Part shown: one piece after another, positions 4,942 through 20,539 of the stretch
How the letters are laid out: every line of letters begins with the position of its first letter
Position numbering within the stretch: the first letter of the stretch is position 1
Translations under genes and position numbers: made by a program
The notes under the pieces: generated by a model
Databases searched by the model: none
Told to the model about the DNA's origin: nothing
Seen by the model: the letters and a program-made list of their open reading frames with translations, nothing else
Source of the DNA: a virus
Direction: 5' to 3' (one strand)
IMG/VR virus record: IMGVR_UViG_3300005663_001291
Span: 1 to 21,176 of that record
DNA length: 21,176 bases

Positions 4942-6018
4942 ATGGCAAAACGAACAAGAGGAACCACAGCACCACCAGTACAGGACGGTCACGGCGGACT
5001 GAAGATTAACCGGTCGGTATTCCTCGATGCGCTGACCAAGGTCAAGCCCGGTCTGGCCAATAAAGAGATCGTTGAACAGTCCATCCACTTCATCCTCGAT
5101 AACGATCGTATCTGGACTTACAATGATCAGCTCGCTATCAGCCATGCGATCAAGACCGGCATCACCGGGGCTGTCAAGGCAAGTGAGTTCCACGCGCTGA
5201 TCAGCAAGATCGATGGCGATGACATCTGGTTTGAGCAGCAGGAAGGGCAGATCTTAATTGAAGCAGAACAGGACAGCGCGACCGTTAATGTTGACCCGGA
5301 TATCAAGTCGCAGGGTATCACCGTGCCGGGGATCAACAGTCGTCAATGGAAGCCCCTGCCGGGAAACTTTGTCGATGCGGTGCGGGCCTGCCTATTCTCG
5401 GTAAGCAAGTCCCTGGATCGCCCGGCGCTGAACTGCCTGTGGGTTGATCAGGATATGATCATCTCCACTGACCGGTACCGGGCTTCACAGCACGTGCTGG
5501 ACGCCCAGATCGAACAACCATTCATGCTACCATTTATTGCAGCCAAAGAGATTGGCAATTACAATCCATACAAGGTATGCGTCGAGGACCGGTGGATTCA
5601 CTTTGTCAACAAGGAGAAGACGTTCTTTTCCTGCCGGGTTACCGATGGTGAATACCCGGTCGAGACTGCAATGGCAATCTTCGACGCCAAGGGTAAGAAG
5701 TTGACCCTGCCGGATAACCTGGATGCCGCGATTGACTTTGCTGATTCGATCCTGGTCGAGGACTTTGCAATCGATAAGTTCGTCACGCTGACGATCGAAC
5801 CGGGGCTGATTACCTGTTCAGGTCTGTCTTCGATTGGCCAAGCCAACAGGCGGATCAAGGGCGAGAACGGATACAAGGGCGCACGTATCCAGGTTGATGT
5901 CAACCCGGCGTTCCTCAAGGAGATAATCGGCCGGCTGGATACGGTTGTGATCGCCGACCGGCTGCTGTTTGAAGGTGAAGGGTTCAAGCACGTACTGTGC
6001 TTGGTAGATGACGAATAA
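4942..6018 (+). CDS. dnaN: DNA polymerase III beta subunit-like sliding clamp
   Basis: At 358 aa this is the size of a bacterial beta clamp (three clamp folds). Recognisable parts are the N-terminal FLDALTKVKPGLANKE, where bacterial clamps carry the first helix and a v.p....l...l pattern; LTKVKP with WTYNDQLAISHAI (typical D..l.i...); central STDRYRASQHVL; and CRVTDGEYPVE, equivalent to the conserved G-YP segment. It should tether the DnaE polymerase encoded at 10211, loaded by the ATPase at 15373. It begins with an extra basic peptide, MAKRTRGTTAPP, absent from bacterial clamps and like the ends of other proteins here. The start is fixed by AAGGAG at 4931-4936. Confidence 0.88.
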   Translation: MAKRTRGTTAPPVQDGHGGLKINRSVFLDALTKVKPGLANKEIVEQSIHFILDNDRIWTYNDQLAISHAIKTGITGAVKASEFHALISKIDGDDIWFEQQEGQILIEAEQDSATVNVDPDIKSQGITVPGINSRQWKPLPGNFVDAVRACLFSVSKSLDRPALNCLWVDQDMIISTDRYRASQHVLDAQIEQPFMLPFIAAKEIGNYNPYKVCVEDRWIHFVNKEKTFFSCRVTDGEYPVETAMAIFDAKGKKLTLPDNLDAAIDFADSILVEDFAIDKFVTLTIEPGLITCSGLSSIGQANRRIKGENGYKGARIQVDVNPAFLKEIIGRLDTVVIADRLLFEGEGFKHVLCLVDDE

Positions 6019-6027
6019 GGGATCAGA

Positions 6028-7440
6028 ATGAAATTCAAAAGAAGCAACCAGGACTATACTGCATTCCTCAAAACCAAAGCCATATCTGATAACCCATCAG
6101 GATTTGATGTTGATCTTGATGATCTAAATCAGATGCTTTTTGATTGGCAAAAGGTGCTGGTCAAATGGAGTCTCTACAAAGGCAGGTCTGCATTGTTTGA
6201 GGATTGCGGTCTGGGCAAAACGCCTCAGCAATTAGCATGGAGCGATACAGTGCATCAAAAAACAGATGGCGATATTTTAATTCTTGCGCCATTGGCCGTA
6301 TCAATCCAGACGCAAAAGGAAGGCGAGAAGTTCGGGGTCGACGTCAATGTGTGCAAAACGCAAGACGGGATGAAGCAGGGCATTAACATAACTAATTACG
6401 AACGGCTTCATCATTTCGATCAGGCAGATATTGCAGGCATAGTACTGGATGAAAGTTCAATCCTCAAAAACTTCGCTGGCATGATTCGCAACCAGATCAT
6501 TGATCAATTCATTTCTGTCCCGTTTAAGCTGTGCTGTACCGCCACGCCAGCCCCAAATGACTACATGGAACTGGGCAATCATTCTGAATTTCTTGGCGTG
6601 ATGACCCGGACTGAAATGCTGGCCATGTTCTTCATCAATGATTCTGGCGAAGCCGGAAAATGGAGACTGAAGGGCCACGTCAAGGATAATCTATTCTGGA
6701 AGTGGTTAAGCTCATGGGCCGTTATGCTATCAATGCCATCTGATCTTGGTTATGAAAATGGAGGATTCGAACTTCCCGAGATCAAATATCATGAATGCAT
6801 AATCCCGACTACGGCCAAACCAAAGAGAGGGCTCTTTGTAGATGAGGTCCAGACTCTTAATGAACGCCGGCAGGTCCGCAAGGAAACCATAGATATTCGC
6901 ACTCGGCTGGCGGGCAATATCATAAACCAAACCGATGACAGATTCGTCATATGGTGCAATCTCAATGATGAAAGCGCAGCACTTACCGAATGCATTGACA
7001 GTGCTATTGAGGTTGCAGGCCGACACGACAATGATATCAAATCCAAAAGGATGCTTGATTTTGCATCTGGGCAAATACGGCGGATAGTCACCAAACCAAA
7101 GGTCGCCGGGCTCGGAATGAATTGGCAGATATGCCATAATGCTATCTTTGTCGGGTTGAGCGATAGCTGGGAACAACTCTATCAGGCAGTGCGCAGGATA
7201 TGGAGGTATGGCCAAGTCGAAGAGGTCAATATATATATCATCATAGAAAGCCGAGAGGGTGCGGTCTTGAAGAACATAAAGCGCAAAGATAGGCAGGCCA
7301 AAGAAATGATCGAAAATATGATCACCCACACGAAAGAATTGACAAAGCGAGAGCTGGCGCAGACCACAAAGGATATAACCGATTACGTTCCGCAAATTAC
7401 TATGGAGGTTCCAGCATGGCTGCAAAGCCTCCAACCATAA
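6028..7440 (+). CDS. SNF2-like DEAD/DEAH-box helicase (SF2 ATPase)
   Basis: The 470-aa protein has both RecA-like lobes of a superfamily 2 SNF2-type translocase. Motif I is GLGKT (61-65), motif II LDESS (DESS at 141-144, as in phage SNF2 proteins), motif III TATPAPND (from 171), a lobe-2 GLGMNWQ motif V, and motif VI QAVRRIWRYGQ (from 386, arginine fingers R389/R390). It should be an ATP-driven dsDNA translocase. The gene starts 9 bases after the clamp stop. It overlaps the next gene by 25 bases. Its combination with a downstream DNA methyltransferase is a recurrent phage pair; here a radical SAM gene is placed between them. Base composition is more AT-rich than in the clamp gene. Start at 6028 has only GGGATCAG upstream, a modest binding site. 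Confidence 0.88.
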   Translation: MKFKRSNQDYTAFLKTKAISDNPSGFDVDLDDLNQMLFDWQKVLVKWSLYKGRSALFEDCGLGKTPQQLAWSDTVHQKTDGDILILAPLAVSIQTQKEGEKFGVDVNVCKTQDGMKQGINITNYERLHHFDQADIAGIVLDESSILKNFAGMIRNQIIDQFISVPFKLCCTATPAPNDYMELGNHSEFLGVMTRTEMLAMFFINDSGEAGKWRLKGHVKDNLFWKWLSSWAVMLSMPSDLGYENGGFELPEIKYHECIIPTTAKPKRGLFVDEVQTLNERRQVRKETIDIRTRLAGNIINQTDDRFVIWCNLNDESAALTECIDSAIEVAGRHDNDIKSKRMLDFASGQIRRIVTKPKVAGLGMNWQICHNAIFVGLSDSWEQLYQAVRRIWRYGQVEEVNIYIIIESREGAVLKNIKRKDRQAKEMIENMITHTKELTKRELAQTTKDITDYVPQITMEVPAWLQSLQP

Positions 7441-8591
7441 CAGAACAGGATCTTTTCAAGCATTTGGATAGAGCCAAAAATGTGTTGCTCCTGGAGCCTA
7501 ATTACCGCCGGAGCTATATGCCACTTGCCCTTGCTAAGATCGCAACATACATAAAGGATCGAGGTGGTCAGATAACCTTTTCCAGATCAGCCAATGTAGA
7601 TCCTGGGCCGTCAGGCAAATTTGATTTGATTTGCGTCACCTCCATCTTCACGACTGATAGCAAGATTGTGATTGCCGCAATCAAAGAATGTAAGCGGGAT
7701 ATGTTTCTTGCAGGCGTACCGCTTATTGTCGGGGGCATATTCGCATCACTAATGCCGGAATATCTTTACAAAGAGGCTGGCGCCCCAATCTTCGTTGGAT
7801 ATTCAAGAAAGCTGGATAAGCAAATGCCAGACTACACAATTGATTGGCAGGTCAAGCCACCATGGGACGATGCAATGCTTGTTTTCACAACCAGAGGATG
7901 CCCTAACAAATGCGGATATTGCATGGTGTGGAGAATGGAGCCGGAGTTTTATATCGAACCAAAATGGAAGGATGCAATTTCCAAGAATGACAAACCGATT
8001 GCAATCATTAGTGACAATAATCTGCTCGCGGCCCCTATTGAGCACTTGCGGGCAGTCGTGCAAACTCTCAATGATAATCAAAAGCAAGTGATTTTCAACA
8101 ACGGAATAGATTGTCGGCTGATCAATAATCAGAATGCCAAGCTGCTGGCCACATTGAAGTATACCAGGAATGGATTCAGAACTGCTTTTGATAGAATGTC
8201 GGATGATGGCCATTATCAGCAGGCAATGGAAATGGTGATCGCGGCAGGGCTGAAGGTCAAGGGCAATTCTTATACGTATGTTCTTTTCAATTTCGACGAT
8301 ACTCCGCAAGAAGCTTACTACAGAGCCAGAGAATGCTGGAAATACGGCAGCAATCCATACCTAATGAGATACAGGCCGCTTAACCAAGCAACACACCGCC
8401 TTGATTACGTCAGTAAATACTGGAGTCCTGCATTGATAACCGCATTCAGCAATTACGGCCAGAACTTCGGCTATAATCGCAAGGATGGAACTTTTGAATC
8501 TTGGATAAAGGGATATACAGAAGGCGGCAAATGGAAATACAAAAGCAAACTAACAGATAATGATTGGGATAAATGGCACTATAAAAGATAG
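7416..8591 (+). CDS. Radical SAM protein with B12-binding-like N-terminal domain
   Basis: The 391-aa protein has the cluster motif TTRGCPNKCGYC, cysteines 162, 166 and 169 (CxxxCxxC). It is preceded by a Rossmann-like region (RRSYMPLALAKIATYIKDRGG ... GVPLIVGGIFASLMPEY) as in cobalamin-dependent radical SAM proteins. The DxHxxG cobalamin ligand motif is not present, so B12 binding is doubtful. A Trp/Tyr/Lys-rich C-terminus follows (YTEGGKWKYKSK). The start at 7416 has GGAGG at 7404-7408, 7 bases upstream, and lies inside the helicase gene, so translation is coupled. Sandwiched between a SNF2 helicase and a DNA methylase, it may act on DNA bases, but its substrate is unknown. Roles on RNA or protein are equally open. 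Confidence 0.82.
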   Translation: MAAKPPTITEQDLFKHLDRAKNVLLLEPNYRRSYMPLALAKIATYIKDRGGQITFSRSANVDPGPSGKFDLICVTSIFTTDSKIVIAAIKECKRDMFLAGVPLIVGGIFASLMPEYLYKEAGAPIFVGYSRKLDKQMPDYTIDWQVKPPWDDAMLVFTTRGCPNKCGYCMVWRMEPEFYIEPKWKDAISKNDKPIAIISDNNLLAAPIEHLRAVVQTLNDNQKQVIFNNGIDCRLINNQNAKLLATLKYTRNGFRTAFDRMSDDGHYQQAMEMVIAAGLKVKGNSYTYVLFNFDDTPQEAYYRARECWKYGSNPYLMRYRPLNQATHRLDYVSKYWSPALITAFSNYGQNFGYNRKDGTFESWIKGYTEGGKWKYKSKLTDNDWDKWHYKR

Positions 8592-8599
8592 GAGCTGAC

Positions 8600-9652
8600 A
8601 TGCCGACGACTTTATCAGAAATCAATGATGCATATGGAGCAATCAATTTCTATGAGCAGAAACTGAAAGAAGCACGTGCAGCCCGGCACAAGCTGCTCAA
8701 TAGAAAAAAATCAAACCCGAAAGTAATCGCCCAAGACTCCACATCCAAATGGGCGGCATATCATGGTGATGCAGTAGAAGTTACAAAAGGGATCCCTGAT
8801 AACAGCATCCATTATTCGATCTTCTCCCCGCCATTTGCTTCGCTCTTTACCTATTCAAACTCAGCACGAGATATGGGCAATTCTCAGGATGGCAACTTCT
8901 ATGATCACTTCGCATATCTCTTGCCTGAGCTATACCGGGCAATGATGCCGGGCAGGCTAATCTCGATTCACTGCATGGATATCCCGGCAATGAAAGAACG
9001 TGATGGATATATCGGGTTGAAAGATTTTCCCGGTATGCTACTGAAAGAATTTGAACGCATCGGATTCATCTACCATAGCAAAGTTCACATCAAAAAGAAC
9101 GAATTGCTAGAAGCTCAAAGGACCCGGGCTATTGGCTTGGCCCATAAGCAAGTAGTCAAAGATAGCGCAATCTGCCGGAATGCACTGCCCGACTATATCA
9201 TGACAGTGCGCAAGCCGGGAAATAATCCAGAACCAATATCACGCAAGAATGGATTTGAAATCTATCGTGGTTCCAAATCTCAACCGGATAAACCTAAGCA
9301 TAAGAAACACGCACTGAATAGATTTAGCCAAAAGATTTGGCAACGATATGCCGCTTCCGTTTGGCTGGATATAAATCAGACCGATACGCTGAATGTTCAG
9401 GCTGCCAGAGAACAGAATGACGAACGTCACATCTGCCCTTTACAACTGGGCGTCATAACCAGATGCCTTGAGCTATGGACTAATGAATCAGATACGGTAT
9501 TGGATCCATTCGGGGGCATCATGTCGGTCGGATATCAAGCACTACTTATGAACCGGCGGGCCGTTATGATTGAGCTGAAGGAATCTTATTACAAACAAGG
9601 CATAAAGAATCTGAAGCGGGCAAGTAAGCCAACGACCAAAAGGTTCTTCTAA
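8600..9652 (+). CDS. Site-specific DNA methyltransferase (N4-cytosine or N6-adenine, beta-class order)
   Basis: The 350-aa protein carries catalytic motif IV SPPF (76-79) before the SAM-binding motif I LDPFGG (302-306), the order of beta-class amino-methyltransferases. The segment after SPPF (ASLFTYSNSARDMGNS) with HCMDIPAMKERDGYIGL and LAHKQVVKDS is characteristic of a phage methylase family that travels with an SNF2 helicase. The S in SPPF favours N4-cytosine, but N6-adenine is not excluded. The N-terminus is a short coiled coil (EQKLKEARAARHKLLNRKK). GGAG at 8591-8594 lies 5 bases before the ATG, next to the radical SAM stop. No restriction endonuclease is adjacent, so it is more likely to mark phage DNA than to be part of a restriction system. 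Confidence 0.88.
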   Translation: MPTTLSEINDAYGAINFYEQKLKEARAARHKLLNRKKSNPKVIAQDSTSKWAAYHGDAVEVTKGIPDNSIHYSIFSPPFASLFTYSNSARDMGNSQDGNFYDHFAYLLPELYRAMMPGRLISIHCMDIPAMKERDGYIGLKDFPGMLLKEFERIGFIYHSKVHIKKNELLEAQRTRAIGLAHKQVVKDSAICRNALPDYIMTVRKPGNNPEPISRKNGFEIYRGSKSQPDKPKHKKHALNRFSQKIWQRYAASVWLDINQTDTLNVQAAREQNDERHICPLQLGVITRCLELWTNESDTVLDPFGGIMSVGYQALLMNRRAVMIELKESYYKQGIKNLKRASKPTTKRFF

Positions 9653-9665
9653 GAAAGGAGCAAAT

Positions 9666-10208
9666 ATGGAACCATGGATAGCAGTACACAGCGGAAAGAA
9701 AGTTGATCCATTTGAGTTCAAGCCCGAAGACGTTAACCTGTTGGATATAGCTCATTCCCTATCTCAGCTCTGTCGGTTCACCGGCCATACAGACCGGTTC
9801 TATTCCGTCGCCCAGCATTGTGTTCTGGTATCACATGTGCTGGAAGGCAAAGATGGGTGCGGCCAGCACGGACTACTACATGAAGTAGATGAACCTTATC
9901 TCAACGACATTAGTTCTCCTGTAAAGCAACATCCTGAGATGCAATTTCTACGCCCGGTTGCAGATGCTATATTTACGACAAGCATGGGTGTGTTGGTTCC
10001 GACTATAGAACTGTCGTCTAATCTGCACGAAGTCGACGCCTGCGTGTGCCTAACCGAAGGCCGAGATCTGATATCGCTTTCTGATATCAAGGAATGGTCC
10101 CTTTACAAAGAAGGACATCGGCCATATATCGACATCCATATTGAACCGCTGATATCGACCGCTGCCGAGCGATTGTTCTATGAGCGATACTATGAACTGA
10201 AAGGATAG
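9666..10208 (+). CDS. HD-domain phosphohydrolase-like protein with HE in place of the HD dyad
   Basis: The 180-aa protein follows the layout of small phage HD hydrolases related to YfbR-type 5'-nucleotidases: a PEDVNLLDIAHSLSQLCRFTGHT segment, SVAQHCVLVSHVL with metal ligand H51, the dyad region, and a later HEVDACVCLTEGRDL with the last Asp. The expected LLHDxxE...D is LLHEVDEPYLND, so residue 73 is Glu instead of the metal-binding Asp. Activity may be altered or lost. In phages with modified DNA such enzymes can adjust nucleotide pools; that role here is inference. AAAGGAG at 9654-9660 sets the start. It precedes the polymerase gene by two bases. Confidence 0.75.
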   Translation: MEPWIAVHSGKKVDPFEFKPEDVNLLDIAHSLSQLCRFTGHTDRFYSVAQHCVLVSHVLEGKDGCGQHGLLHEVDEPYLNDISSPVKQHPEMQFLRPVADAIFTTSMGVLVPTIELSSNLHEVDACVCLTEGRDLISLSDIKEWSLYKEGHRPYIDIHIEPLISTAAERLFYERYYELKG

Positions 10209-10210
10209 AC

Positions 10211-13200
10211 GTGTTCATACATTTACACCTACACAATGAGTTCAGTGCCCTGGACGGCTACGGCACGGCCGAGCAATACACCGCCCGAGCAGCCGAGATG
10301 AACTTCTCCCACCTGGCGCTGACTAACCATGGCAATGTAGCCGGGGCGATCAAATGGCAACGCGCCTGCCAGAAGGCCGGGATCATCCCGATCCATGGAT
10401 GTGAAGCATATATCGTCCCAGACATCTCACGCAAGTTCAAAGCCGAACGGCGAGGCCACATCACCCTGCTGGTGACCAACATGGACGGGTGGACAGAACT
10501 TTGCCGGATGCTCACGGTCGCCCACCTGGAAGGGCACTACTATAAGCCCAGGATTGATTTCGAAATGATACGTGAGATGGACCTGTCAGGGTTGATCATC
10601 CTCACCGGCTGCGCCGCATCATTTCTAAATCTACCGGGCGGATTTAAACTACTTGCCGAGCTGCATGAAAAGGGTGCCCGTGTATACTACGAGATCATGC
10701 CACACAATATCGAACCCCAACAGGCTCAGAATCAATTGGTATGTGAGCTATCAGTACAAACCGAGTTCCCCCTTGTGGCCACTAACGATTGCCACTACGT
10801 GCTGCGGTCCGAACACAAGGCACAGGAAATGCTCCTGGCCATCCAGACCAAGGCCAAATGGGATGACCCGAAGCGGTGGTCGTTCGGATTCACCGGGCTG
10901 CACCTGCGGTCAGAACAGGAAATGTTCAAAGCATTTCAGCGCTTGGGTGGCTTCACCGATGCTGAGATACAGCGTGCCCTGGATGCCACCGGGATGATCG
11001 CAGCCGAGTGTGAAGGCTTTGAGATCCCGCAACAGGATATCAACTTGCCGTCGATGGCAGACGATCCAGATAAAGCCCTTGACGACCTGTGCCAAACAGC
11101 CTTGCAGGCGAAGCCATTTAGCGATCCTCGGGCGTACGAGGACAGGTATAGGGTAGAGTATACCTTGATCAAGAACAAGGGATTTGCGGACTATTTCCTG
11201 ATCGTATATGATCTGATTCAATACGCCAATGAACACGGGATTATGATGAGCCCAGGTCGTGGATCGGTCGGGGGTAGCCTGATCGCTTACCTGCTGGGGA
11301 TAACCGAACTTGATCCGATCTATCACGATCTATCTTTCAGCCGGTTCATTAGCGAGGACCGTGTCGACTGGCCCGATATAGATTTGGATTTTCAGAAAGA
11401 GCACCGGGCACGGATCGTTGAATACATCGAGGGCAAATACGGCCAGTTCAATACCTGTGGGATCACAACCGACAGCAGGCTGAAGGGTCGGGCGGTGCTC
11501 AATGATGTGGGTAGAGCTTTCCGGGTACCACCGGCAGACATTGCGCAGGTATCAAAGCTGATCGATACCAAGGCCAAGCGCGACACTGTCAAGACCATGT
11601 TGGACGGAACCGATGAAGGTAGCCGGTTCTATGCGGTGTACAAAGATGCAGCCCGGCTGGCCATGAAGCTGGAAGGGCAACTGCGACAGCACGGGCTGCA
11701 TCCCGGCGCGGTTGTGATATCGGCCGATGACCTGCGCGATGGTAGCCGTGGCAATCTGAAGATGCAAAAGGATCGGGTGGTGTCCTGCTTTGATATGGAG
11801 GATGCAGAATACTGCGGTCTGATGAAGCTGGATATCCTCGGGCTGGTGACCCTGGATGTGCTGGTCTATTGTAAGGAGTTGATTAAAGAATCAAGGTCGT
11901 TTTGGTTTCACCCGGAGAGCGGTGAACACTTTGTTTGGAAAGATTCACCGGGCGGATATATGTTACCCAAAGAAGGGAAAAGAGTCGATTTCGATTACGA
12001 CAAGATTCCATTTGATGACCCCAAGGTGTTTGCCGAAATCAGCGCAGGCAATACAGCCGGAGGGTTCCAGATATCAGGCAGAGCCACCACGCAGCTTGCG
12101 CAGGATATGATCATCACAGAGTTCAAAGATATCGTCGCCCTGATCGCCCTGGTGCGCCCTGGTCCGACCGATAGCGGAATGACTGAGATGTATGTTGCCC
12201 GATCAAAAGGAGCCACCTACGGCCAGCAGCACCCCATCTATGAACAAGTGACAGCAGACACCCATGGGATTCTAATCTACCAGGAACAGATCATGCAGGT
12301 TATTTCCAAGGTAGCCGGGATGTCTGAAAGCGATGCCGACAAAGTCCGCAAGATCATCGCCAAGAAACGAGACCTGGCAGAGTTGGCTCCATATGAGCAG
12401 CAGTTCGTAGACGGCTGCCAGCAGATGGAAACGTTCAGCGCCGAACAGGCCAGAGCGTTCTGGGCTAACCTGCAAGAGCTGGGCAAGTACGGATTCAACA
12501 AGGCGCACTCAACCGGATATGCCGTCCTGGCCTACTGGACGTGTTGGTGCAAAATAAATTACCCAGGCGAGTTCCTCGCGGCTTGCCTTACATACGATGA
12601 GAAGGAGGACAAGCAACGATTGATCAAAGATGCATACCGGTATGGGTTCACCGCCAGTTACCCCAAGGACGGCCTATCAGACCCCCTGCGGTGGACAATC
12701 CACGACCGGGTAATGTATGCCCCGTTTTCTGAGATCATCGGCATGGGTGAGACCGAGGCGAAGCGCGCCGCCGGCCAGGGGCCAGAACGCAAAACGCGCA
12801 TGAAGGGTTTCTTCAATATGAAGCCGGTAGTCAATCAGCAAAGTGATATCGGCAAAGTGCTCAAGGCGGCGGGCGTGTTTGATCCCGAGCGGATGTTCAC
12901 CACCGAAGAAGCCGGGCAGCTATTCAAGTTTGTGATCGACCCTGATCTGACCCCTACGCAAGACAGCGGCGAGCCCGGAGCTGATTATCCAGAGCTGAGA
13001 AAGATCTTACTTGACCTTGATCCGGTTTATGCAGCCGAATTATGGTTTGATATCCCTGGTGAATTTGTCAACGCAATCTCATTGCCGTCCGGGTTGATAA
13101 CTGAAGAGCACGCAATCGCACAGGCGTTCAAAGGTCCGCTGTGTCCTGACCTGAAAGATTGCTATGATTGCCCGCTGGGTGATCAGACCGGCAAAGGTCC

Positions 13201-13714
13201 GGTAGGTCCGACCATGGGCAAATACAACATTATGATCACCGGGGAAGCACCTGGGCCGGAAGAAGATGAACACGGATGGGGGTTCTACGAAGGGGCTCCG
13301 GCTGGTAAGCTGTTGTGGGATACCTTGCTAAATAGACAGGCTCGCAAAGGGAAGTGGAATCTACCCCGAGAGTTTTTCTACGTGACTAATATCTGCAAGT
13401 GTTATCCGTCTAAGACCAGGACGCCATCACACACCGAAATCGAGACTTGCTACGACCGGTGGCTGCAACATGAGATCGAACAGATGCAGCCGCGTATTAT
13501 CCTGGCCTTCGGCAATACATCGCTGTACGCTTTCACAGGGGAGAAGGGCGGGATCAATAATCTATCGGGCAAGGTCCAATGGAACGAACGCGTACGGGCC
13601 TGGATAGTATGGTGTGCTCATCCGGCGAGTGTAAAGCGCAGCGGGGATTCGCAGTACTTTGACCGGGGTATGGAAACATTCTACAAGATATTGTTGAAAG
13701 CATGGGGGAGATAA
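10211..13714 (+). CDS. dnaE: DnaE-type DNA polymerase III alpha subunit fused to a C-terminal uracil-DNA glycosylase-like domain
   Basis: The 1167-aa protein uses a GTG start with AAGGA at 10201-10205. Residues 1 to about 260 are a PHP domain (HLHLHNEFSALDG, then LTNHGN and GCEAYI). The C-family polymerase core follows: PGRGSVGGSL, catalytic PDIDLDF (D389, D391), KLDILGL (D541, the third Asp), LVRPGPTDSG, IYQEQIMQV and FNKAHSTGYA. In place of the usual OB-fold tail, residues ~975-1167 look like a family-4 uracil-DNA glycosylase. They carry C984xxC987, GEAPGPEED (1011-1019), C1064 and C1080 with 15 residues between, TNICKCYPS, LAFGN and CAHPAS (H1137). The four cysteines match the iron-sulfur ligand spacing of that family. 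It is one continuous frame. It should copy the phage genome with the clamp at 4942; the UDG part may sense or remove uracil. The downstream methyltransferase start overlaps its stop. Confidence 0.92.
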   Translation: MFIHLHLHNEFSALDGYGTAEQYTARAAEMNFSHLALTNHGNVAGAIKWQRACQKAGIIPIHGCEAYIVPDISRKFKAERRGHITLLVTNMDGWTELCRMLTVAHLEGHYYKPRIDFEMIREMDLSGLIILTGCAASFLNLPGGFKLLAELHEKGARVYYEIMPHNIEPQQAQNQLVCELSVQTEFPLVATNDCHYVLRSEHKAQEMLLAIQTKAKWDDPKRWSFGFTGLHLRSEQEMFKAFQRLGGFTDAEIQRALDATGMIAAECEGFEIPQQDINLPSMADDPDKALDDLCQTALQAKPFSDPRAYEDRYRVEYTLIKNKGFADYFLIVYDLIQYANEHGIMMSPGRGSVGGSLIAYLLGITELDPIYHDLSFSRFISEDRVDWPDIDLDFQKEHRARIVEYIEGKYGQFNTCGITTDSRLKGRAVLNDVGRAFRVPPADIAQVSKLIDTKAKRDTVKTMLDGTDEGSRFYAVYKDAARLAMKLEGQLRQHGLHPGAVVISADDLRDGSRGNLKMQKDRVVSCFDMEDAEYCGLMKLDILGLVTLDVLVYCKELIKESRSFWFHPESGEHFVWKDSPGGYMLPKEGKRVDFDYDKIPFDDPKVFAEISAGNTAGGFQISGRATTQLAQDMIITEFKDIVALIALVRPGPTDSGMTEMYVARSKGATYGQQHPIYEQVTADTHGILIYQEQIMQVISKVAGMSESDADKVRKIIAKKRDLAELAPYEQQFVDGCQQMETFSAEQARAFWANLQELGKYGFNKAHSTGYAVLAYWTCWCKINYPGEFLAACLTYDEKEDKQRLIKDAYRYGFTASYPKDGLSDPLRWTIHDRVMYAPFSEIIGMGETEAKRAAGQGPERKTRMKGFFNMKPVVNQQSDIGKVLKAAGVFDPERMFTTEEAGQLFKFVIDPDLTPTQDSGEPGADYPELRKILLDLDPVYAAELWFDIPGEFVNAISLPSGLITEEHAIAQAFKGPLCPDLKDCYDCPLGDQTGKGPVGPTMGKYNIMITGEAPGPEEDEHGWGFYEGAPAGKLLWDTLLNRQARKGKWNLPREFFYVTNICKCYPSKTRTPSHTEIETCYDRWLQHEIEQMQPRIILAFGNTSLYAFTGEKGGINNLSGKVQWNERVRAWIVWCAHPASVKRSGDSQYFDRGMETFYKILLKAWGR

Positions 13715-14271
13715 TGAACTCAGCCGAGGTTAAAAAGTATTGGGAAGAACGAGGGTTGAAGTATGAAGGTGCGCCGAACGACGATGAGTACGCATTCTTG
13801 GCCTCGCTCGTAGGGTACCACACAAATCCGGGAGGCATGATTGCTGAGATCGGCTCCGGCTGGGGTCGGGTATATATGCAGCTTGATAAGTCAGGGTTGC
13901 TAAATGAAAGCAGGGTCTTTCGTATGTTTGACTTCGTAAAGTCCATGCGAGATGTGTGTGAACAGAAAACTGGTTCAAGGCCAACTGCATGGAATGGAAA
14001 ATATATCCCGGCGCGTACTGACCTGTACGACTTTGTAATCTCGGCTTCAGTCCTACTCCATGTTCCACCGGAAGATATCGAGCAGGTATTTGCTGAACAT
14101 GTCAGGATCACCCGGAGATACTTGTATGTGGCTACATATACCGGACAGCAGAAATATTTGGCCAAGCATTGTTTCTGGCACGACTATGAACAGTTATTTG
14201 ACAACCATCAGCTGAAGATAGTTGACCAGCGGGAGTATCCGTCAAGGACTAATTGGCTGCTGGAAAAGTAG
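13714..14271 (+). CDS. Class I SAM-dependent methyltransferase, substrate unknown
   Basis: This 185-aa protein is a compact Rossmann methyltransferase. Motif I is MIAEIGSGWGRVYMQL, followed by FRMFDFVKSM (acidic residue after strand 2) and DLYDFVISASVLLHVPPEDI (motif IV, then the LLHV typical of this group). It lacks an N/DPPY motif, so it is not an obvious DNA amino-methylase; a small molecule, sugar, RNA or protein target is possible. The start at 13714 overlaps the polymerase stop (TAATG) with GGGAG at 13706-13710. An upstream ATG at 13702 is possible but less well placed. Confidence 0.75.
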   Translation: MNSAEVKKYWEERGLKYEGAPNDDEYAFLASLVGYHTNPGGMIAEIGSGWGRVYMQLDKSGLLNESRVFRMFDFVKSMRDVCEQKTGSRPTAWNGKYIPARTDLYDFVISASVLLHVPPEDIEQVFAEHVRITRRYLYVATYTGQQKYLAKHCFWHDYEQLFDNHQLKIVDQREYPSRTNWLLEK

Positions 14272-14286
14272 CCGGAAGGAAATGAC

Positions 14287-14667
14287 ATGAGCAAAGACAA
14301 TGCTATAAGAATTGTGAAGACCAAAGACGGTGAAGGGGATCTCGTATTCAAGGGTTATGACCGCTGTATCAGCGTTGATTTTAACCCGGCACAACCATGC
14401 AATCCGTTTCATACATTAGAAGCTGCGATGGTATGGGGAACAGCGCAGGAAGCAGAGCATGGCATTGAATATTTTGATGAAACAGCTATTGTTGAGCTTG
14501 GGCAAGCAATAACGAATACAGCCCAATGGCTCTTGGATAGACTATTGGAACGCGATTGCAAAGCTGTGTTAAAAATTCTCAACCCTTACAACCACGAAAT
14601 TGAACTTGAAGATCCACCGATGCTGATAACGATTCGGCCATCAGTAAGAGTCCCATGGATAGCATAG
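14287..14667 (+). CDS. Hypothetical protein
   Basis: The 126-aa product is not recognised. It has an N-terminal beta-rich part (DNAIRIVKTKDGEGDLVFKG), an acidic helical middle (FHTLEAAMVWGTAQEAEHG) and a C-terminal region LLERDCKAVLKILN. No membrane segment, signal or cysteine motif is present. GGAAGGA at 14274-14280 lies 6 bases before the ATG, supporting translation. It overlaps the next gene by 13 bases. Its position among replication genes is the only clue to its role. Confidence 0.6.
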   Translation: MSKDNAIRIVKTKDGEGDLVFKGYDRCISVDFNPAQPCNPFHTLEAAMVWGTAQEAEHGIEYFDETAIVELGQAITNTAQWLLDRLLERDCKAVLKILNPYNHEIELEDPPMLITIRPSVRVPWIA

Positions 14668-14840
14668 ACCCCGACAGGATCAAAACGATCTTCTTGCTGA
14701 TGGAATATGACGAGCTGACAGAGTGGGAACTGGGCTTTGTGGAAAGTGTTGAGAAACAATTCAATGCCAACGGTGAATTGACTGAGCCGCAGTATGATAA
14801 GCTTGAAGAAGTCTTTGAGCGGGCAGCTGAAAGGGCATAA
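14655..14840 (+). CDS. Small acidic conserved phage protein
   Basis: A 61-aa acidic protein with the pattern LTEWELGFVESVEKQ ... GELTEPQYDKLEEVFERA. This W-E-x-x-F-hydrophobic then LT-x-x-Q-hydrophobic-x-x-L arrangement occurs, from memory, in short phage and plasmid proteins and in tails of some replication proteins, and would form two or three helices. No catalytic residue is evident. Its start lies inside the preceding gene and its stop is one base from the next start, so it belongs to the same translated cluster. The ribosome binding site is weak, which suggests coupling. Confidence 0.6.
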   Translation: MDSIDPDRIKTIFLLMEYDELTEWELGFVESVEKQFNANGELTEPQYDKLEEVFERAAERA

Positions 14841-14841
14841 C

Positions 14842-15369
14842 GTGCAAGCCAAGATGACATTCTACACAACCCGGCATTTTATCGAGCAGAGCCCAGTCCC
14901 CATCGACCGGATTGAACAAATGCTCAACGCTGCCTGGGTACTAACCAGCCGGATGCCTACGTCCGCAGACGGATCACTGCTCAAGGCAGCCGATGAAATA
15001 GGCCGACGTATCTACGCCTATTGTCAGGGGAAGAAGAAATATATAATCGTCATAGGCAAGGATCGGGATACCGACAAGTTCAATACGCTTATCACCATGT
15101 ACAGGCTCGATCACCAAGGGGCCTGGGCGATTAAGAAGTTCCGCAAGACCCCGGTTAAGAAGCGCCGGCTGCTGCGCACGTATCTGAAATTTACTACAGC
15201 GGTTGTAACCACTCGACAGGTCGAGAAAGCACCACAGCAGTCGCGGCCCCAACCGCGCAAGCGCGTCCATCCTCAATCTCGCCCGGTGGCGTACGAACCA
15301 CGTAAGAACAATATCCTCACTGTCCGTGAACTTGGAATTGATATTGAGCCAATCAAAAGGAGACGATAG
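14842..15369 (+). CDS. Hypothetical basic protein, possible RelE/DUF4258-like fold
   Basis: The GTG at 14842 is chosen because AAAGGG (14830-14835) lies 6 bases upstream and the previous gene stops one base earlier; an upstream in-frame ATG at 14794 would overlap that gene, and an ATG at 14854 has no good site. The 175-aa product begins TFYTTRHFIEQSPVPIDRIEQML and continues through a helix to KKYIIVIGKDRDTDKFNTLITMY. This helix then beta-hairpin layout is like RelE-superfamily or DUF4258-type small proteins, a weak visual match. The C-terminal half is very basic and proline-rich (RPQPRKRVHPQSRP, ending IKRRR), probably disordered and nucleic-acid binding. Nothing beside it looks like an antitoxin, so a toxin role is not claimed. 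Confidence 0.55.
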   Translation: MQAKMTFYTTRHFIEQSPVPIDRIEQMLNAAWVLTSRMPTSADGSLLKAADEIGRRIYAYCQGKKKYIIVIGKDRDTDKFNTLITMYRLDHQGAWAIKKFRKTPVKKRRLLRTYLKFTTAVVTTRQVEKAPQQSRPQPRKRVHPQSRPVAYEPRKNNILTVRELGIDIEPIKRRR

Positions 15370-15372
15370 ACC

Positions 15373-16308
15373 ATGCCGCTGCATATTGATTACCGACCAA
15401 ATGATTTTGATCAAGTTATTGGTAATACATCTACAATCAAAAGTATGCTGACCATACTCGAAAGAGAGAACAAGGACTTCCCCCATGCGATAATGCTACA
15501 CGGACCACGAGGCACTGGTAAGACTACCTTAGCATATATTTGGGCCAAACACTTAGGTTGCCCGCCCGAAATAAAAAAGGGCGAGACAAATATAGATTTC
15601 CGAGAGATCGATACAGCACAGCAAACCGGGGTAGATACAGCGCGTGATATAAGAGGCGAGATAAGATACAGACCCATTAACTCAGATGTCCGGGTTTACC
15701 TACTTGACGAATGCCACAAAATGTCGCCGGCGTTTCAAAACGGAATGCTCAAGGCAACAGAAAAGCCGCCCTCTTTTGTTTATTTTATCTTGTGTACTAC
15801 CGAACCGAATAAAATCATCCCCACGCTGACAAGTCGCTGTATGAAGTTTGCGACTGAAAAAGCAAGCGATATCGATTTACAGAACTTGGCATTAGATATC
15901 TTTGAAAGTGAAGGGCTTATTAATATCAGCAGTGATATTCTCAATGCCCTTGTTAAAAGTGCGGACGGTGCACCCCGAGAACTACTCATCAATATGGATA
16001 AGATCCTGGACCTGGATCCAGATGAAATGATGGAAGCTATTATTCAGGTCGATCAACAACAGGTGATTGATCTCTGCCGGGCGCTGATCAAAAAACAACC
16101 ATGGTCAGCCATTGCCCAGATCCTACAGGGTATCAAGGACAACCCCGAACAAGTACGCCTGGCCGTGATGGGCTACATGAGCACAGTACTGTTAAACAAT
16201 GACCGGCTGGACAGCCACGCACTGCTGATTATGAACTGTTTTAAGGATCCCAATTTCAACAACGGCAAGCCCGGCCTGGTCACTGCTTGCGCCGAGGTGT
16301 ATATTTAA
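15373..16308 (+). CDS. Clamp loader ATPase subunit (DnaX/RFC-like)
   Basis: The 311-aa AAA+ protein has the clamp-loader signature: YRPNDFDQVIGN at the N-terminus, Walker A GPRGTGKTT (44-52), Walker B VYLLDECHK (D112-E113), sensor 1 CTTEPNK, and the SRC motif (154-156) that places the arginine finger of loader subunits. A helical collar-like C-terminus follows. It lacks the four-cysteine zinc module of bacterial DnaX, so it is closer in plan to RFC small subunits or T4 gp44. No second loader subunit (delta-like) is recognised in the window. It should open and load the clamp at 4942. AAAAGGAG at 15355-15362 precedes the ATG by 10 bases. The first half is more AT-rich than the second. Confidence 0.88.
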   Translation: MPLHIDYRPNDFDQVIGNTSTIKSMLTILERENKDFPHAIMLHGPRGTGKTTLAYIWAKHLGCPPEIKKGETNIDFREIDTAQQTGVDTARDIRGEIRYRPINSDVRVYLLDECHKMSPAFQNGMLKATEKPPSFVYFILCTTEPNKIIPTLTSRCMKFATEKASDIDLQNLALDIFESEGLINISSDILNALVKSADGAPRELLINMDKILDLDPDEMMEAIIQVDQQQVIDLCRALIKKQPWSAIAQILQGIKDNPEQVRLAVMGYMSTVLLNNDRLDSHALLIMNCFKDPNFNNGKPGLVTACAEVYI

Positions 16309-16314
16309 TTCATC

Positions 16315-16347
16315 TTGATTTTAACCCAACGACCTATAATATATATA
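16315..16347 (+). promoter_or_regulatory. Promoter for the recombination operon (repeated phage promoter motif, copy 2)
   Basis: The 53-base gap before 16362 holds TTGATTTTAACCC, then CCTATAATATATATA (TATAAT at 16335-16340, TATATA at 16342-16347). Aligned at CCTATAAT with the block at 2775-2806, the two agree at TGATTT, CCC, AC and the whole CCTATAATATATA. Depending on which element is used, TTTAAC at 16320 is 16 bases from TATATA. It is followed by AAGGGGG, the ribosome binding site of the UvsY-like gene. Confidence 0.6.
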
Positions 16348-16361
16348 AGGGGGTAGCAAAT

Positions 16362-16919
16362 ATGGACGATCAAATAGAATACGATTACCAGAAAGACCTG
16401 GCGATTGATCTTGACCGGCTTGAAGAAGAGTGCCTGGAGCATCCGCAGCTGTATATGAAGTATGTAATTGCGTTGGCAGAGATCAAAAAGCTCAAGGCAA
16501 AAGTCTGGGAGCGGCTCAAGATACGTCGGAGCCAATTGGCCAAGGAAGCCAAAGATCACGGCGCTACTAATGCGACTCTGGTTGAAGCATACTACCGGGA
16601 TCATGAAGACCACATCGCGTTGAAAGAAGAACTAATCGAGGCTGAATATCAGGTAGATATCATCCAGGGTATAGTCGATGATTTTGGATATCAGCGCAAG
16701 GCCATGCTGGAACATGAAGTGTCGTTGTGGATTGGCCAATGGTTTGCCGGCCCGAAGGAACCACGTATATTGCAAGGTGGCAAACGGCTAATCGCTATGC
16801 AGACCGCTTCCATCGAAGGTACAGCCAAAGGGATACGTGCAGCGCTGAATAAGGATCGGGCCAAGACAGAAACAACACCACCAACTGGCAGAAAGACCAG
16901 AAGTCGCAGTCGCGGTTGA
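16362..16919 (+). CDS. UvsY-like recombination mediator
   Basis: The ATG at 16362 has AAGGGGG 8 bases upstream; the longer frame from 16287 would cross the promoter. The 185-aa helical protein starts YDYQKDLAIDLDRLEEECLEHPQLYMKYVIALAEIKK, which has the D..ID...L..E....P.LY.KY plan of T4 UvsY. It continues with charged coiled-coil segments (ERLKIRRSQLAKEAK, then LKEELIEAEYQVDIIQGIV). In T4 UvsY loads UvsX recombinase onto gp32-covered single strands. The downstream SSB and RecA-like genes fit that trio in the same operon. The C-terminus ends in a basic peptide (GRKTRSRSRG) also found in other proteins here. The assignment is by pattern, not by search. Confidence 0.65.
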   Translation: MDDQIEYDYQKDLAIDLDRLEEECLEHPQLYMKYVIALAEIKKLKAKVWERLKIRRSQLAKEAKDHGATNATLVEAYYRDHEDHIALKEELIEAEYQVDIIQGIVDDFGYQRKAMLEHEVSLWIGQWFAGPKEPRILQGGKRLIAMQTASIEGTAKGIRAALNKDRAKTETTPPTGRKTRSRSRG

Positions 16920-16922
16920 GAT

Positions 16923-17081
16923 ATGAAATGGGCAATCATCATAATCGTACTTGTGATCGCACTGGTATTTGTTGCACGTGTGATCACCAGAATCACTGTC
17001 AGAACTTACTATGAAGAAAGGAAACGGTATTATGGACAGAGAAGAACAAAGACGGAGGATGAGGGAGAGGACGGCGCGTAG
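16923..17081 (+). CDS. Small single-pass membrane protein
   Basis: The ATG at 16923 follows the UvsY-like stop by 3 bases and encodes 52 residues. Residues 4-20 (AIIIIVLVIALVFVARV) form one strong membrane helix, followed by a basic (RITVRTYYEERKRYYGQRR) then acidic tail. Its last 50 bases overlap the start of the SSB gene in another frame, so the two are probably translationally coupled. Such short membrane proteins in phages can be lysis- or superinfection-related, but nothing here tells which. The ribosome binding site is weak. Confidence 0.5.
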   Translation: MKWAIIIIVLVIALVFVARVITRITVRTYYEERKRYYGQRRTKTEDEGEDGA

Positions 17082-18270
17082 CGCAGCCAATACGAAGGCA
17101 ACCGGCCTGGGCAGAAAAACCGTCCTGGATCTAACCGTTGTTGGTGACCGGACAATCGATCAATACAGGATGAAGGGAGGGGTCGGTATCAAGAACGCCC
17201 TGGACATCCTACCATATGAGATCACCCAAGATTGGTACAAGGACATGCGGGAACCCAGCGGTGCTCCGACTGGGCTGGCCGTGGGTGATAGTGATTACAA
17301 ACTTGAGTACGGCGTACACAAACGCCAGGGTGAAAACCAAGACACCGTGCTTTGCCTACGGCTTACCTTCGGGCGTCAGTGTCCCATGTGTGAACCGATG
17401 CAGACCCTATGGGGTATTGACAAGGCCAAGCGCACCATTGATCAGCAGAAGATGCTGGACTTCCTCAAGCCCAGTTGGCGGTGTTCATACAACGTGTTCG
17501 ACTACGATGAGCCGGCCAAAAACATCCAGCTATGGGATGACCAGAGTTATAAACTTTTCGAGGAGCTGCTCAAGCTGCGCATCCAGACAGACCCGGAAGG
17601 TCTACAGGCGTTTTCGGATCTGGAGACTGGGCTGATTGTAGAGTTCGAAGGGGTTTCAAAGACATTGGGCACCAATACCAAACCCTTCTATGAGGCTGCG
17701 CAGTTCGCCTTCCTGCAACGGTCGGAGCCGTGGCCGTATGAAACCTTGCAGGAAACATTCCCACTCGATCAGATGTTGCCGATCCCGACCTATAATGAAG
17801 TGGCCGCGATCTTTAACTCTCTGGAAGCCCCGCCTGATATGGACGGTTACGATGATCAGCAACCTACGGCCGGCACAAGATCAAGGGGTGATGCTGGCGG
17901 CGGTCGTAGCCGGGATGATGCTCAGCCAGGCGCTACCCAATGTTCGGGCGGGCATACGCTCGGCAAGGATTACAACCAATTTGAAAACTGCAATGCTTGT
18001 GACGAACAGGAATATCAGCAATGCGCAGATCTGAATAGACCTGACGGTGACACTGCGGATAGTCCGGGCGACGGTAGCCAACCATGGACACCGGGTCAAT
18101 CAGATGCCCCCGCTGACAATCAGCCGGCAACGAACACACGTAGTCGGACCCGTGAGGCTGATGCCGGTGGTGACCAGCCTGCTACTGGACAAAGAACCAG
18201 AGGGCGCCAGGACACACAGCCCCCTGCCGACCCCGGCACCCGGCAAAGAGTACAGCGCACGCGAGGCTAA
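17032..18270 (+). CDS. Single-stranded DNA-binding protein, T4 gp32-like
   Basis: The start at 17032 is supported by AAAGGA at 17017-17022, 9 bases upstream; an upstream ATG at 17011 has no site. The 412-aa protein begins with a basic peptide (MDREEQRRRMRERTAR), like the cooperative-binding N-terminus of gp32. Then comes a core with an H..CPMC zinc-knuckle pattern (LTFGRQCPMCEPM) as in gp32, WRCSYNVFDY, IQLWDDQSYKLF and LIVEFEGVSK. A long disordered tail follows, with a second Cys cluster (CSGGHTLGKD ... CNACDEQEYQQC) seen in other phage SSBs. It ends in several repeats of an R-S-R-G or R-T-R-G peptide and closes with VQRTRG. It coats single strands during replication and recombination, between UvsY-like and RecA-like partners. 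Confidence 0.82.
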   Translation: MDREEQRRRMRERTARSAANTKATGLGRKTVLDLTVVGDRTIDQYRMKGGVGIKNALDILPYEITQDWYKDMREPSGAPTGLAVGDSDYKLEYGVHKRQGENQDTVLCLRLTFGRQCPMCEPMQTLWGIDKAKRTIDQQKMLDFLKPSWRCSYNVFDYDEPAKNIQLWDDQSYKLFEELLKLRIQTDPEGLQAFSDLETGLIVEFEGVSKTLGTNTKPFYEAAQFAFLQRSEPWPYETLQETFPLDQMLPIPTYNEVAAIFNSLEAPPDMDGYDDQQPTAGTRSRGDAGGGRSRDDAQPGATQCSGGHTLGKDYNQFENCNACDEQEYQQCADLNRPDGDTADSPGDGSQPWTPGQSDAPADNQPATNTRSRTREADAGGDQPATGQRTRGRQDTQPPADPGTRQRVQRTRG

Positions 18271-18274
18271 CACC

Positions 18275-18529
18275 ATGGATTCAACCTACATATCCACACG
18301 TGATGCCCACGCCCTGACGGTGGCGGCCGGTATTGATCCGATCACATTCGTCACCATCAGGACGTGGGTACACAAATATAACCTGGGCAAAAAGATAGGT
18401 GGCCGGCTCCGCATTGACAAAACCAAATACATGGAATTTCTACACGGTGATAATGAATGGAAAGAACGCGCGAAGAACAACCAAGGCAGCGGGGTCGATC
18501 CCGAGCAGTACCCGCTTCGGAACTGGTAA
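18275..18529 (+). CDS. Small helix-turn-helix DNA-binding protein (excisionase/MerR-like)
   Basis: An 84-aa protein with GAGG (18263-18266) 8 bases before the ATG. It reads YISTRDAHALTVAAGIDPITFVTIRTWVHKYNLG, then KKIGGRLRIDKTKYMEFLHG. That is the winged HTH plan of excisionase/MerR-type domains: helix, turn, recognition helix with TIRTWV, then the GGRLRI wing and a final helix. In this position, between SSB and RecA-like genes and overlapping the latter by 73 bases, it may regulate this operon or assist recombination; that is inference. No integrase is near, so an excisionase role is not supported. Confidence 0.7.
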   Translation: MDSTYISTRDAHALTVAAGIDPITFVTIRTWVHKYNLGKKIGGRLRIDKTKYMEFLHGDNEWKERAKNNQGSGVDPEQYPLRNW

Positions 18530-19641
18530 CCCAAGCAGAAGAGCATAGCGCCCAGCCGGTTGTGCCCCAGGCCAAGATCGACACTTCCGTGCTGATCCCC
18601 AGCGGGTTGACGTTACTGAATTGTGCCTGTAGCGATAACCCGCTGGGGGCATTTGCACTCGGCCGGATTGCTACCATACCGGGAGCATCACAGGGGGGCA
18701 AGACCCTACTGATGCTGAATATGCTTGCCCAGGTTGCTACAGATCCCCGGTTCGATGAACACGAACTGATCTATGACGACTCCGAAGAGACAATGGAATC
18801 ATTCGATATACCACATCTATTCGGGCTAAAACTGGTCAAGCGTATCCGGGCTCCATTCTACGATGGTGATGATCCGATTCACAGCAACACCATCCAAGAT
18901 CTCAAAGCGTATCTATTAGAGAAAACCAAGCCTGGTCAACCGCCGTTTATATACGTAGCCGATTCGCTGGATGCCCTCACTACCGATGAAGAGCTAACGC
19001 GAGAATACCAGAATGCACTAATCAAGGCCGCCAATCCCGAAGCGGTGGAAGAGTTGAAAAACAGCTACAAGGCAGAAAAAGCCAAGGGCATTGGTGAAAC
19101 CCTGCGGATGATCAATGGTAGTCTAAAGAAAACTCAGTCTGCCCTATTCATCGTCCAGCAAGTCCGGGCCAAATTCAATGCAATGAAGAACGCCCGGCAA
19201 TGGACAACCAGCGGGGGCAAAGCCCCATTCTTCTATAGCACTCATCAGGCGTATCTGACCAAGGTCAAGACGCACAATCCAGAAATCGGCAAGATGAAAT
19301 TGAAGACTGGCATGCGCGCCCGGATTGAACTGATCAAGAACAAACTCACTGGTAAGGAGCGGTCAATTGAAGTCGACGCCTTTGTAGATTACGGCATGGA
19401 CGATATCGGTTCATGTGTAGACTTCCTGGTCAAAGCCGGGCGGTGGAAAAAGGACAAGGCTAAGATCGTCCCGGAAGATCTATTTGGCTCAGCACAACAA
19501 GGAGAGAAGTTCATGCGCCGGGAGCTGGTCAAGCTGATCCAGACTGAACAGGCCGGGCTGGAAATGCAAACCCTTGTGGGTGATACTTGGCTACAGGTAG
19601 AAGAGAAATTCAAGACGGATCGACCTCGGAGGTTTGAATGA
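18457..19641 (+). CDS. RecA/UvsX-like DNA recombinase
   Basis: The 394-aa protein has a RecA-fold ATPase core. It reads VLIPSGLTLLNCACSDNPLGAF, Walker A GASQGGKT (76-83), Walker B FIYVADSLDAL, then SALFIVQQVR, and GGKAPFFYSTHQAYLTK, which matches the GG..lkFy segment of RecA/UvsX. It ends with YGMDDIGSCVDFLVKAGRW, like the RecA region after the core. It should form filaments on single-stranded DNA and drive strand exchange. The N-terminal ~40 residues are disordered, starting MERTREEQPRQRGRSRAV, a basic peptide shared with neighbours. The start lies inside the HTH gene with a weak GGTG site, so it is probably coupled. Its stop overlaps the next start (ATGA). Confidence 0.85.
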   Translation: MERTREEQPRQRGRSRAVPASELVTQAEEHSAQPVVPQAKIDTSVLIPSGLTLLNCACSDNPLGAFALGRIATIPGASQGGKTLLMLNMLAQVATDPRFDEHELIYDDSEETMESFDIPHLFGLKLVKRIRAPFYDGDDPIHSNTIQDLKAYLLEKTKPGQPPFIYVADSLDALTTDEELTREYQNALIKAANPEAVEELKNSYKAEKAKGIGETLRMINGSLKKTQSALFIVQQVRAKFNAMKNARQWTTSGGKAPFFYSTHQAYLTKVKTHNPEIGKMKLKTGMRARIELIKNKLTGKERSIEVDAFVDYGMDDIGSCVDFLVKAGRWKKDKAKIVPEDLFGSAQQGEKFMRRELVKLIQTEQAGLEMQTLVGDTWLQVEEKFKTDRPRRFE

Positions 19642-19826
19642 AAACCATCACCGTCAGTTATGGCAAGACCGTCAGCACAGGTCATTTTGAATCGGCCAAA
19701 TTCAACGCAAGCATATCGGTCGAAGTCGATGACGACGCCAACAATCAGGAAACCCTGGATGATCTCATGCAGCAGGTCAATGATTTTGTCGAGACAGAAG
19801 TTGAAGGTATCAGGAGTAATCTGTAA
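19638..19826 (+). CDS. Small conserved phage protein
   Basis: A 62-aa protein starting MKTITVSYGKTVSTGHFESAKF, then NASISVEVDDDANNQETLDD and a helix. The start ITV.yg.tv..G.fes..f..s is familiar from short phage proteins next to recombination genes, but no function is known to me. It is a two-strand plus helix unit with an acidic C-terminal half. It is translationally coupled on both sides: ATGA with the RecA-like gene and a one-base overlap (TAATG) with the RuvC-like gene. GGAGG at 19628-19632 (inside the RecA-like gene) supports translation. Confidence 0.65.
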   Translation: MKTITVSYGKTVSTGHFESAKFNASISVEVDDDANNQETLDDLMQQVNDFVETEVEGIRSNL

Positions 19827-20539
19827 TGAAACGCACACGCAGCAGTCTTCCAAGTGACCCCGGATATGTCCAAGGATCAGGAGTAACGCCACGCAGAGGT
19901 CTGTCCACTCAAGCTCAACACTTCTTGCTCCAAAGTCCTTCCCCAAACATCCTTTCCATTGACGCCGGCTTCACCAAGTTCGGCTGGGCGGTATTCAGCA
20001 ACCACGAACCGATTGCTTGCGGCGTGATCCAAAATAAAGCCGTGGACAAAAAGACTGTCGCTGTCTCGAATGAATACCAGACGATGGCTTCCTTTCTGGC
20101 CAGGGCCTTGCGCGGGATCTATACCGAACACAATTGCCAGGCACTCGTTGGCGAGCTACCTCACGGCGGCGGGCTATCCGCCAGGGCAGTATCACATATG
20201 AATATGTCCACCGCCATAGTCGGGGCCGTGACTGGCCTGCTGGATATCCCCTGCGAGTTCTGTTCCCCTACTGATGTAAAGATCGCAACCTGCGGTACGA
20301 CCACTGCCAGTAAACTTGAAATGATGAAACGGATCATTGAGATGTATAATGGATACTGGGATACAAAACGCGTCCGCTGCAAGGCATCTGTTAAATATCC
20401 GGAAGGATACCGCGAAGATTACATCTGGAATTTTCGTGGTGGTAGATATGGCTCAGGATTGTTTGAGCATGTTGCGGATTCGTGCGGGGCGTATTTGGCA
20501 TTAGCGGATTCAAATTTGATTAAACTTCTTGGGAGTTAA
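19826..20539 (+). CDS. RuvC-like Holliday junction resolvase
   Basis: The 237-aa protein has an RNase H-fold with RuvC motifs: ILSIDAGFTKFGWAVF (D46), ALVGELPHGGG (E110), a Lys-containing SPTDVKIATCGTTTASK, and a C-terminal FEHVADSCGAYLAL with H215 and D218 spaced as HxxD. These are the acidic metal-binding residues of RuvC. The ~40-residue N-terminal extension is disordered and begins with MKRTRSS, a basic peptide seen in other proteins here. Its partner genes (SSB, RecA-like) make resolution of recombination intermediates or branched replication DNA before packaging the likely role. Confidence 0.82.
   Translation: MKRTRSSLPSDPGYVQGSGVTPRRGLSTQAQHFLLQSPSPNILSIDAGFTKFGWAVFSNHEPIACGVIQNKAVDKKTVAVSNEYQTMASFLARALRGIYTEHNCQALVGELPHGGGLSARAVSHMNMSTAIVGAVTGLLDIPCEFCSPTDVKIATCGTTTASKLEMMKRIIEMYNGYWDTKRVRCKASVKYPEGYREDYIWNFRGGRYGSGLFEHVADSCGAYLALADSNLIKLLGS

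Follow-up and report, generated by a model that had tools for sequence, protein, structure and literature searches.

We analyzed a linear virus fragment of about 21 kb in IMG/VR (IMGVR_UViG_3300005663_001291, positions 1-21,176; the whole of this stretch is henceforth the window), which codes for six proteins with a short Arg- and Thr-containing peptide (the tag) at one of their ends. It is found at the N-termini of a 95-residue protein encoded upstream of a TAGT glycosyltransferase, a DnaN-like sliding clamp, a RecA/UvsX-like recombinase and a RuvC-like Holliday-junction resolvase, and at the C-termini of a UvsY-like recombination mediator and a gp32-like single-stranded DNA-binding protein (SSB), the tail of which bears further copies on both sides of its C4 finger (Table 1). 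The 95-residue protein gave no convincing match in Pfam or PHROG. An RTR-type peptide lies within 9 residues of an end in 6 of 25 window genes (this count leaves out a gene cut at the 5′ edge), as against shuffle means of 0.11 for whole proteins and 0.33 for the 25 residues at the ends, the highest value in 5000 shuffles of either kind being 3; in no further window gene does [KRE][TS]R[GSTE] occur within 20 residues of an end. The original prediction had drawn attention to this recurrence from the sequence alone, and all the end peptides it quoted were located at the genes it had named; its statement that the copies differ in the codons used was likewise borne out by a codon listing. Its gene starts call for revision in that the UvsY-like gene probably begins at 16362 and the SSB gene at 17032, and its range of 4942-19850 leaves out the gene at 3807 that its own text had included.

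Table 1. Tagged genes of the window and the copies of the tag that they encode.
Feature	Coordinates	Strand	Basis
N-terminal tag MKRTRS of 95-residue protein	3807..3824	+	sequence; codons ATG AAG CGT ACC AGA AGC
95-residue tag-bearing protein, function unassigned	3807..4094	+
N-terminal tag MAKRTRG of sliding clamp	4942..4962	+	sequence
DnaN-like sliding clamp (processivity factor)	4942..6018	+	PHROG 947, E=2e-21
UvsY-like recombination mediator	16362..16919	+	Pfam UvsY, E=2.5e-6; PHROG 231
C-terminal tag GRKTRSRSRG plus stop, UvsY-like protein	16887..16919	+	sequence, codons
gp32-like SSB, C4 finger and long disordered tail	17032..18270	+	PHROG 1192, E=6e-8
TRSRG copy in SSB tail, upstream of finger	17875..17889	+	sequence
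TRSRTR copy in SSB tail, downstream of finger	18136..18153	+	sequence
QRTRG copy in SSB tail, downstream of finger	18190..18204	+	sequence
VQRTRG, C-terminal motif of SSB	18250..18267	+	sequence
N-terminal tag MERTREEQPRQRGRSR of RecA-like protein	18457..18504	+	sequence
RecA/UvsX-like recombinase	18457..19641	+	Pfam RecA, E=6e-13; PHROG 97, E=2.5e-31
N-terminal tag MKRTRS of RuvC-like resolvase	19826..19843	+	sequence
RuvC-like Holliday-junction resolvase	19826..20539	+	PHROG 159, E=5e-13

A direct query of IMG/VR with the RecA-like protein retrieved zero relatives. The clamp query returned two, whose 45%-identical clamps both start MTRTRR (MTRTRRSPR and MTRTRRQPR), and hence close clamps retain the peptide at their N-terminus; the clamps of more distant relatives have no N-terminal extension. 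A clamp alignment yielded 44 virus loci and five bins, alignments of RecA and the portal protein up to 160 loci, some on contigs already in the set, and 26 contig sets were covered entirely or almost entirely. Orthologs of the window proteins do keep the peptide: in the clamp-alignment set the RecA proteins start with MERTKKP, MKRTKNS and similar sequences, and the RuvC proteins with MERTKPS, MERTRQ or MKRADR. The core form in these relatives is [E/K]-R-T-[K/R], and the Arg-rich KRTRS and RTRG are the forms of the window. A large uncultured phage group (L029, L218 and relatives) has at least 577 RecA loci in IMG/VR, with several contigs near 69 kb; INPHARED holds no close isolate of it, the best RecA and portal matches being at most about 35% identical.

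The whole-proteome comparison with shuffled sequences that had been suggested as a check was strongly positive. Among 3016 genes of the relatives, [EKQR]RT[KR] lies within residues 2-8 of 138, versus 1.9 expected from internal windows, and at the C-end of 21, versus 1.9 expected. As the loci had been picked via RecA, portal and clamp, these families were removed for a recount, which left 68 N-terminal matches against 1.84 ± 1.32 in shuffles (maximum 7 in 500) and 18 C-terminal matches against 1.79. The copies in the whole set are distributed over 26 protein clusters at the N-terminus and 11 at the C-terminus, and in seven of ten genomes read after the pattern had been found, RTK, KRT or ERT is among the most enriched N-terminal tripeptides, if not always top-ranked (ERA is enriched in one of the ten). 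The shuffles of both the window and the relatives rule out chance as the origin. The same pattern occurs in 0 of 292 genes of T4 and three other isolates. The tag is also specific in sequence beyond charge: at the N-terminal place in the 26 contig sets, the RT form is found in 50 genes, the corresponding KT, RS and RL forms in 4, 3 and 3, and the reversed motif in 9. Since versions with Lys for Arg or with Ser or Leu for Thr are not enriched, it amounts to more than a basic tail.

At the tag, every one of the six Arg and four Thr codons is in use, which indicates selection on the peptide rather than on the RNA. Recent copying of a single start region is unsupported too, the codons differing between copies. 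In RecA, the portal, RuvC, SbcD and a 121-residue protein whose gene follows that of the major capsid protein, the information is mainly at positions 2-5 and then drops, and in the first four of these Arg is the most conserved tag residue. Glu is frequent at position 2, the net charge of MERTK is about +1, and some lineages replace Thr by Ile, Ala, Val, Asp or Asn. Of the aligned members of the 121-residue family, 90% or more have Glu2-Arg3, which is followed by a linker of variable length. In its length, within the 3-10 residues usual for a short linear motif, and in its place in disordered regions of unrelated proteins, the tag has the makeup of such a motif; it is non-random, selected at the protein level and specific to protein ends, C-ends included.

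The tag is found mainly on proteins of unrelated folds that act in recombination, in helicase loading and at the packaging vertex. With a strict pattern applied in a start-aware manner, it is carried by 51 of 85 RecA proteins, 39 of 70 portals (with both ends tagged in several phages), 20 of 47 RuvC and 20 of 40 SbcD proteins, and 14 of 40 members of the 121-residue family. It further appears in DnaD-like helicase loaders (5/11), RusA (5/11), GIY-YIG nucleases (5/10), TerL (3/15) and TerS (2/13), and among the relatives' clamps (3/45) and SSBs (3/84). Separate counts with tolerant anchors find a tag-like N-terminus of RecA in 73 of 86 related contigs and of RuvC in 31 of 45, and a tag-like SbcD in 30 of 39. 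UvsY is tagged at the C-terminus, as it is in the window, with 11 of 83 related proteins ending in xRT[KR] by the strict pattern, and at least two of four families are tagged in 49 of the 86 contigs. Because several RuvC and SbcD proteins begin straight at the fold without the tag, it behaves as a detachable appendage. The peptide is not equally common on structural proteins, with 0 of 33 major capsid, 0 of 39 decoration and 0 of 66 head-morphogenesis proteins tagged. The earlier view of the carriers as mostly replication and recombination proteins was too narrow; a restriction to replication proteins is ruled out by the tagged portal and the capsid-neighbouring protein, to which some terminase subunits can be added. 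The capsid-neighbouring protein, of 110-130 residues (e.g., L218 11588-11953) and present in about 40 relatives, has a nearly invariant N-terminal MER; an AlphaFold2 model of modest confidence gave no significant structural match, and the attempt to identify it failed.

The window and G005, the closest relative having a RecA gene, share Arg-rich tags and extra copies in the SSB tail. In G005, RecA begins with MVRRRRS and UvsY finishes in RRRKRTDKVKE, and the SSB shows TRNRSRQR before the C4 finger, in the same place as TRSRG of the window, with NTRNRRR and then a final TTRRRRRR after it. Vibrio phage KF3 and Edwardsiella phage ZHS encode the same proteins with still more Arg-rich ends. The SSBs of these two (L006 13561-14931 in ZHS; L007 6072-7220 in KF3) have long tails of mixed Arg/Asp charge, and UvsY and SSB of ZHS both end in RRRED. 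In the window SSB, the motif copies fall in stretches with a predicted local distance difference test score below 50 in the AlphaFold2 model. A profile of this SSB found T4 gp32 as its two best PDB matches, weakly (E=0.12), and a Foldseek search of the model against the PDB gave no significant match. The related SSBs have an acidic linker with a mean of 34% Asp/Glu, and in 70 of 84 the C-terminus bears a finger-like motif. A gene for a tiny membrane protein of 44-52 residues lies between those of UvsY and SSB (window 16923-17081; L006 13430-13564; L007 5929-6069), and its product might anchor the recombination proteins at the membrane.

From these sequence patterns we lean towards the interpretation that the peptide is a linear motif on the disordered ends of unrelated phage proteins that would be read by one common hub. 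The shared interaction or localisation tag suggested in the original prediction finds good support in hundreds of related genes, although its limitation to replication and recombination does not; the DNA-binding tail offered beside it has become less likely. A single partner would bind all copies and thereby gather the recombination proteins (RecA, UvsY, SbcD and the resolvases), the helicase loader, the portal and the terminase on the same phage DNA, where concatemers made by recombination could be resolved and then passed straight to the packaging vertex. Such a coupling of recombination to packaging is suggested by the tag being common to the resolvases, RecA, SbcD and the portal and terminase. 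More tentatively, the SSB is a candidate for the partner, as in most relatives it combines the acidic linker with the C-terminal C4 finger, and as UvsX and UvsY are bound by the acidic C-domain of T4 gp32 (PMC3016280); in the window, it also has several motif copies of its own, which may add self-association, as for T4 gp32.

Several observations weigh against such a common reader. Not all DNA-acting proteins are tagged, as seen with DNA polymerase (0/107) and the clamp loader (1/84). The strict tag is found in none of the genes of G005, G006, G017, G023 and G040. The C4 finger fails as the sole reader, for L012 has a tagged RecA without the finger and L050 the finger with an untagged RecA. 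Tag variants do match within genomes above label shuffles; however, pairs of nearest relatives match almost as well, and we make no claim of within-genome co-evolution of the tag variants with a receptor.

Among the alternatives, the tags could be plain electrostatic extensions that bind DNA or RNA and raise the affinity of DNA enzymes, with no dedicated receptor. Such a function would suit proteins that act mostly on DNA and the Arg-rich versions of the window, G005, KF3 and ZHS, yet we regard it as unlikely, given the lack of enrichment of the Lys, Ser and Leu substitutions, the frequent Glu at position 2, the net charge of MERTK, and the presence of the tag on the portal and the capsid-neighbouring protein with its absence from DNA polymerase.

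We consider it rather improbable that the motif binds the SSB core in the way of the cooperativity motif of gp32, with the tagged proteins docking on SSB-coated DNA. The LAST motif of T4 gp32, Lys-Arg-Lys-Ser-Thr at residues 3-7, mediates self-association (PMC12424627), and UvsX and UvsY bind to the acidic C-domain of the same protein (PMC3016280). Like LAST, the tag is a short end peptide with basic and Ser/Thr residues on phage recombination and replication proteins, and LAST too works by protein-protein contact (PMC12424627). The motif is present in the window SSB, and KRTRS of the 3807 gene and RuvC has the LAST composition (Lys/Arg)3(Ser/Thr)2; KRTRG of the clamp, ERTRE of RecA and the relatives' common MERTK, with two basic residues only, depart from it. 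The SSB copies of the window are at the C-end instead of residues 3-7, and the SSBs of the relatives, as counted above, are mostly untagged. The similarity to gp32 is itself weak in sequence and without a significant structural match. Moreover, unlike LAST, which is described for a single protein that binds the adjacent copy as well as its own DNA trough, the tag is common to more than 10 unrelated families, including the portal and terminase.

That the tag is a modification or turnover signal, with its conserved Arg or Thr the substrate of a phage or host enzyme (by ADP-ribosylation, phosphorylation or proteolysis), we hold to be distinctly improbable: the standing of Arg as the most conserved residue in RecA, the portal, RuvC and SbcD would fit it, but the replacement of Thr in some lineages argues against phosphorylation. 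We give scarcely any credence to a start-codon translation or mRNA element (an A-rich run of early codons, or an operator of the RegA type) that encodes the peptide by accident. A-ending codons are slightly preferred at the tag, and T4 RegA is annotated as a translational repressor of replication-gene mRNAs, but the use of all Arg and Thr codons rules such an element out, as do the C-terminal copies of UvsY and the portal and those within the SSB tail of the window.

The reading we prefer, that of a motif bound by a common hub, makes the tag a linear motif borne by the clients, and the closest described peptide is the LAST motif. In bacteria, the C-terminal peptide of SSB (SSB-Ct, DDDIPF) provides a single peptide code that organises many genome-maintenance proteins on DNA. 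There, the hub bears the peptide and the clients the pocket, whereas in these phages it is the clients that bear the peptide. The T4 capsid-targeting sequence is a short N-terminal peptide of several internal head proteins that directs them to one destination and is removed during head maturation; in contrast to this strictly N-terminal signal of internal head proteins, the tag is also at the C-ends of UvsY and the portal, and is carried by RecA, RuvC and SbcD. The phage-nucleus import system of Chimalliviridae, centered on PicA, sorts phage DNA enzymes including RecA to the DNA compartment by surface recognition, no conserved linear signal having been found for it (PMC11087766). The tag would likewise place phage DNA enzymes, but via a linear peptide. 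The T4 resolvase EndoVII is described as associated with the portal gp20 in a paper that cites Golz and Kemper 1999 for it (PMC10893049). The association, as reported in that citing paper, joins the resolution of Holliday junctions with the packaging vertex and thus resembles the link we propose for these phages, in which the resolvases and the portal bear the same peptide. We know of no shared peptide for the EndoVII-gp20 association.

Other features of this phage group were noted alongside. The window encodes a QueE (1103-2752) with an in-frame intein-like insert at the cysteine motif, and the 215-residue QueE of relatives aligns only to its residues 6-45 and 361-541. A DnaE polymerase (10211-13714) is fused to a uracil-DNA-glycosylase-like domain, and in the relative L003 the DnaE gene (11784-15756) is split by an extra open reading frame (13499-14089). 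Many short open reading frames starting MKIYFA, MKIYLAG or similar are scattered in this phage group, among them those in the window (528-674), L003 (4906, 8588, 9662 and 9811) and L005 (9738 and 9877).

No report of a terminal peptide common to phage recombination and packaging proteins was found in full-text searches of the literature, most subscription journals being outside the coverage. We tentatively propose, as a possibility that falls short of being our expectation, a phage-encoded protein-sorting code in which one terminal peptide and one receptor would bring proteins to a shared site of recombination, restart and packaging in small tailed phages without a known nucleus. How recombination, replication and packaging are brought together in nucleus-less tailed phages is poorly understood, and a four-residue code makes the question testable, the tag being small enough for pull-down, deletion and transplant work. 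It also provides a sequence handle for placing unknown phage genes in the DNA-handling machinery.

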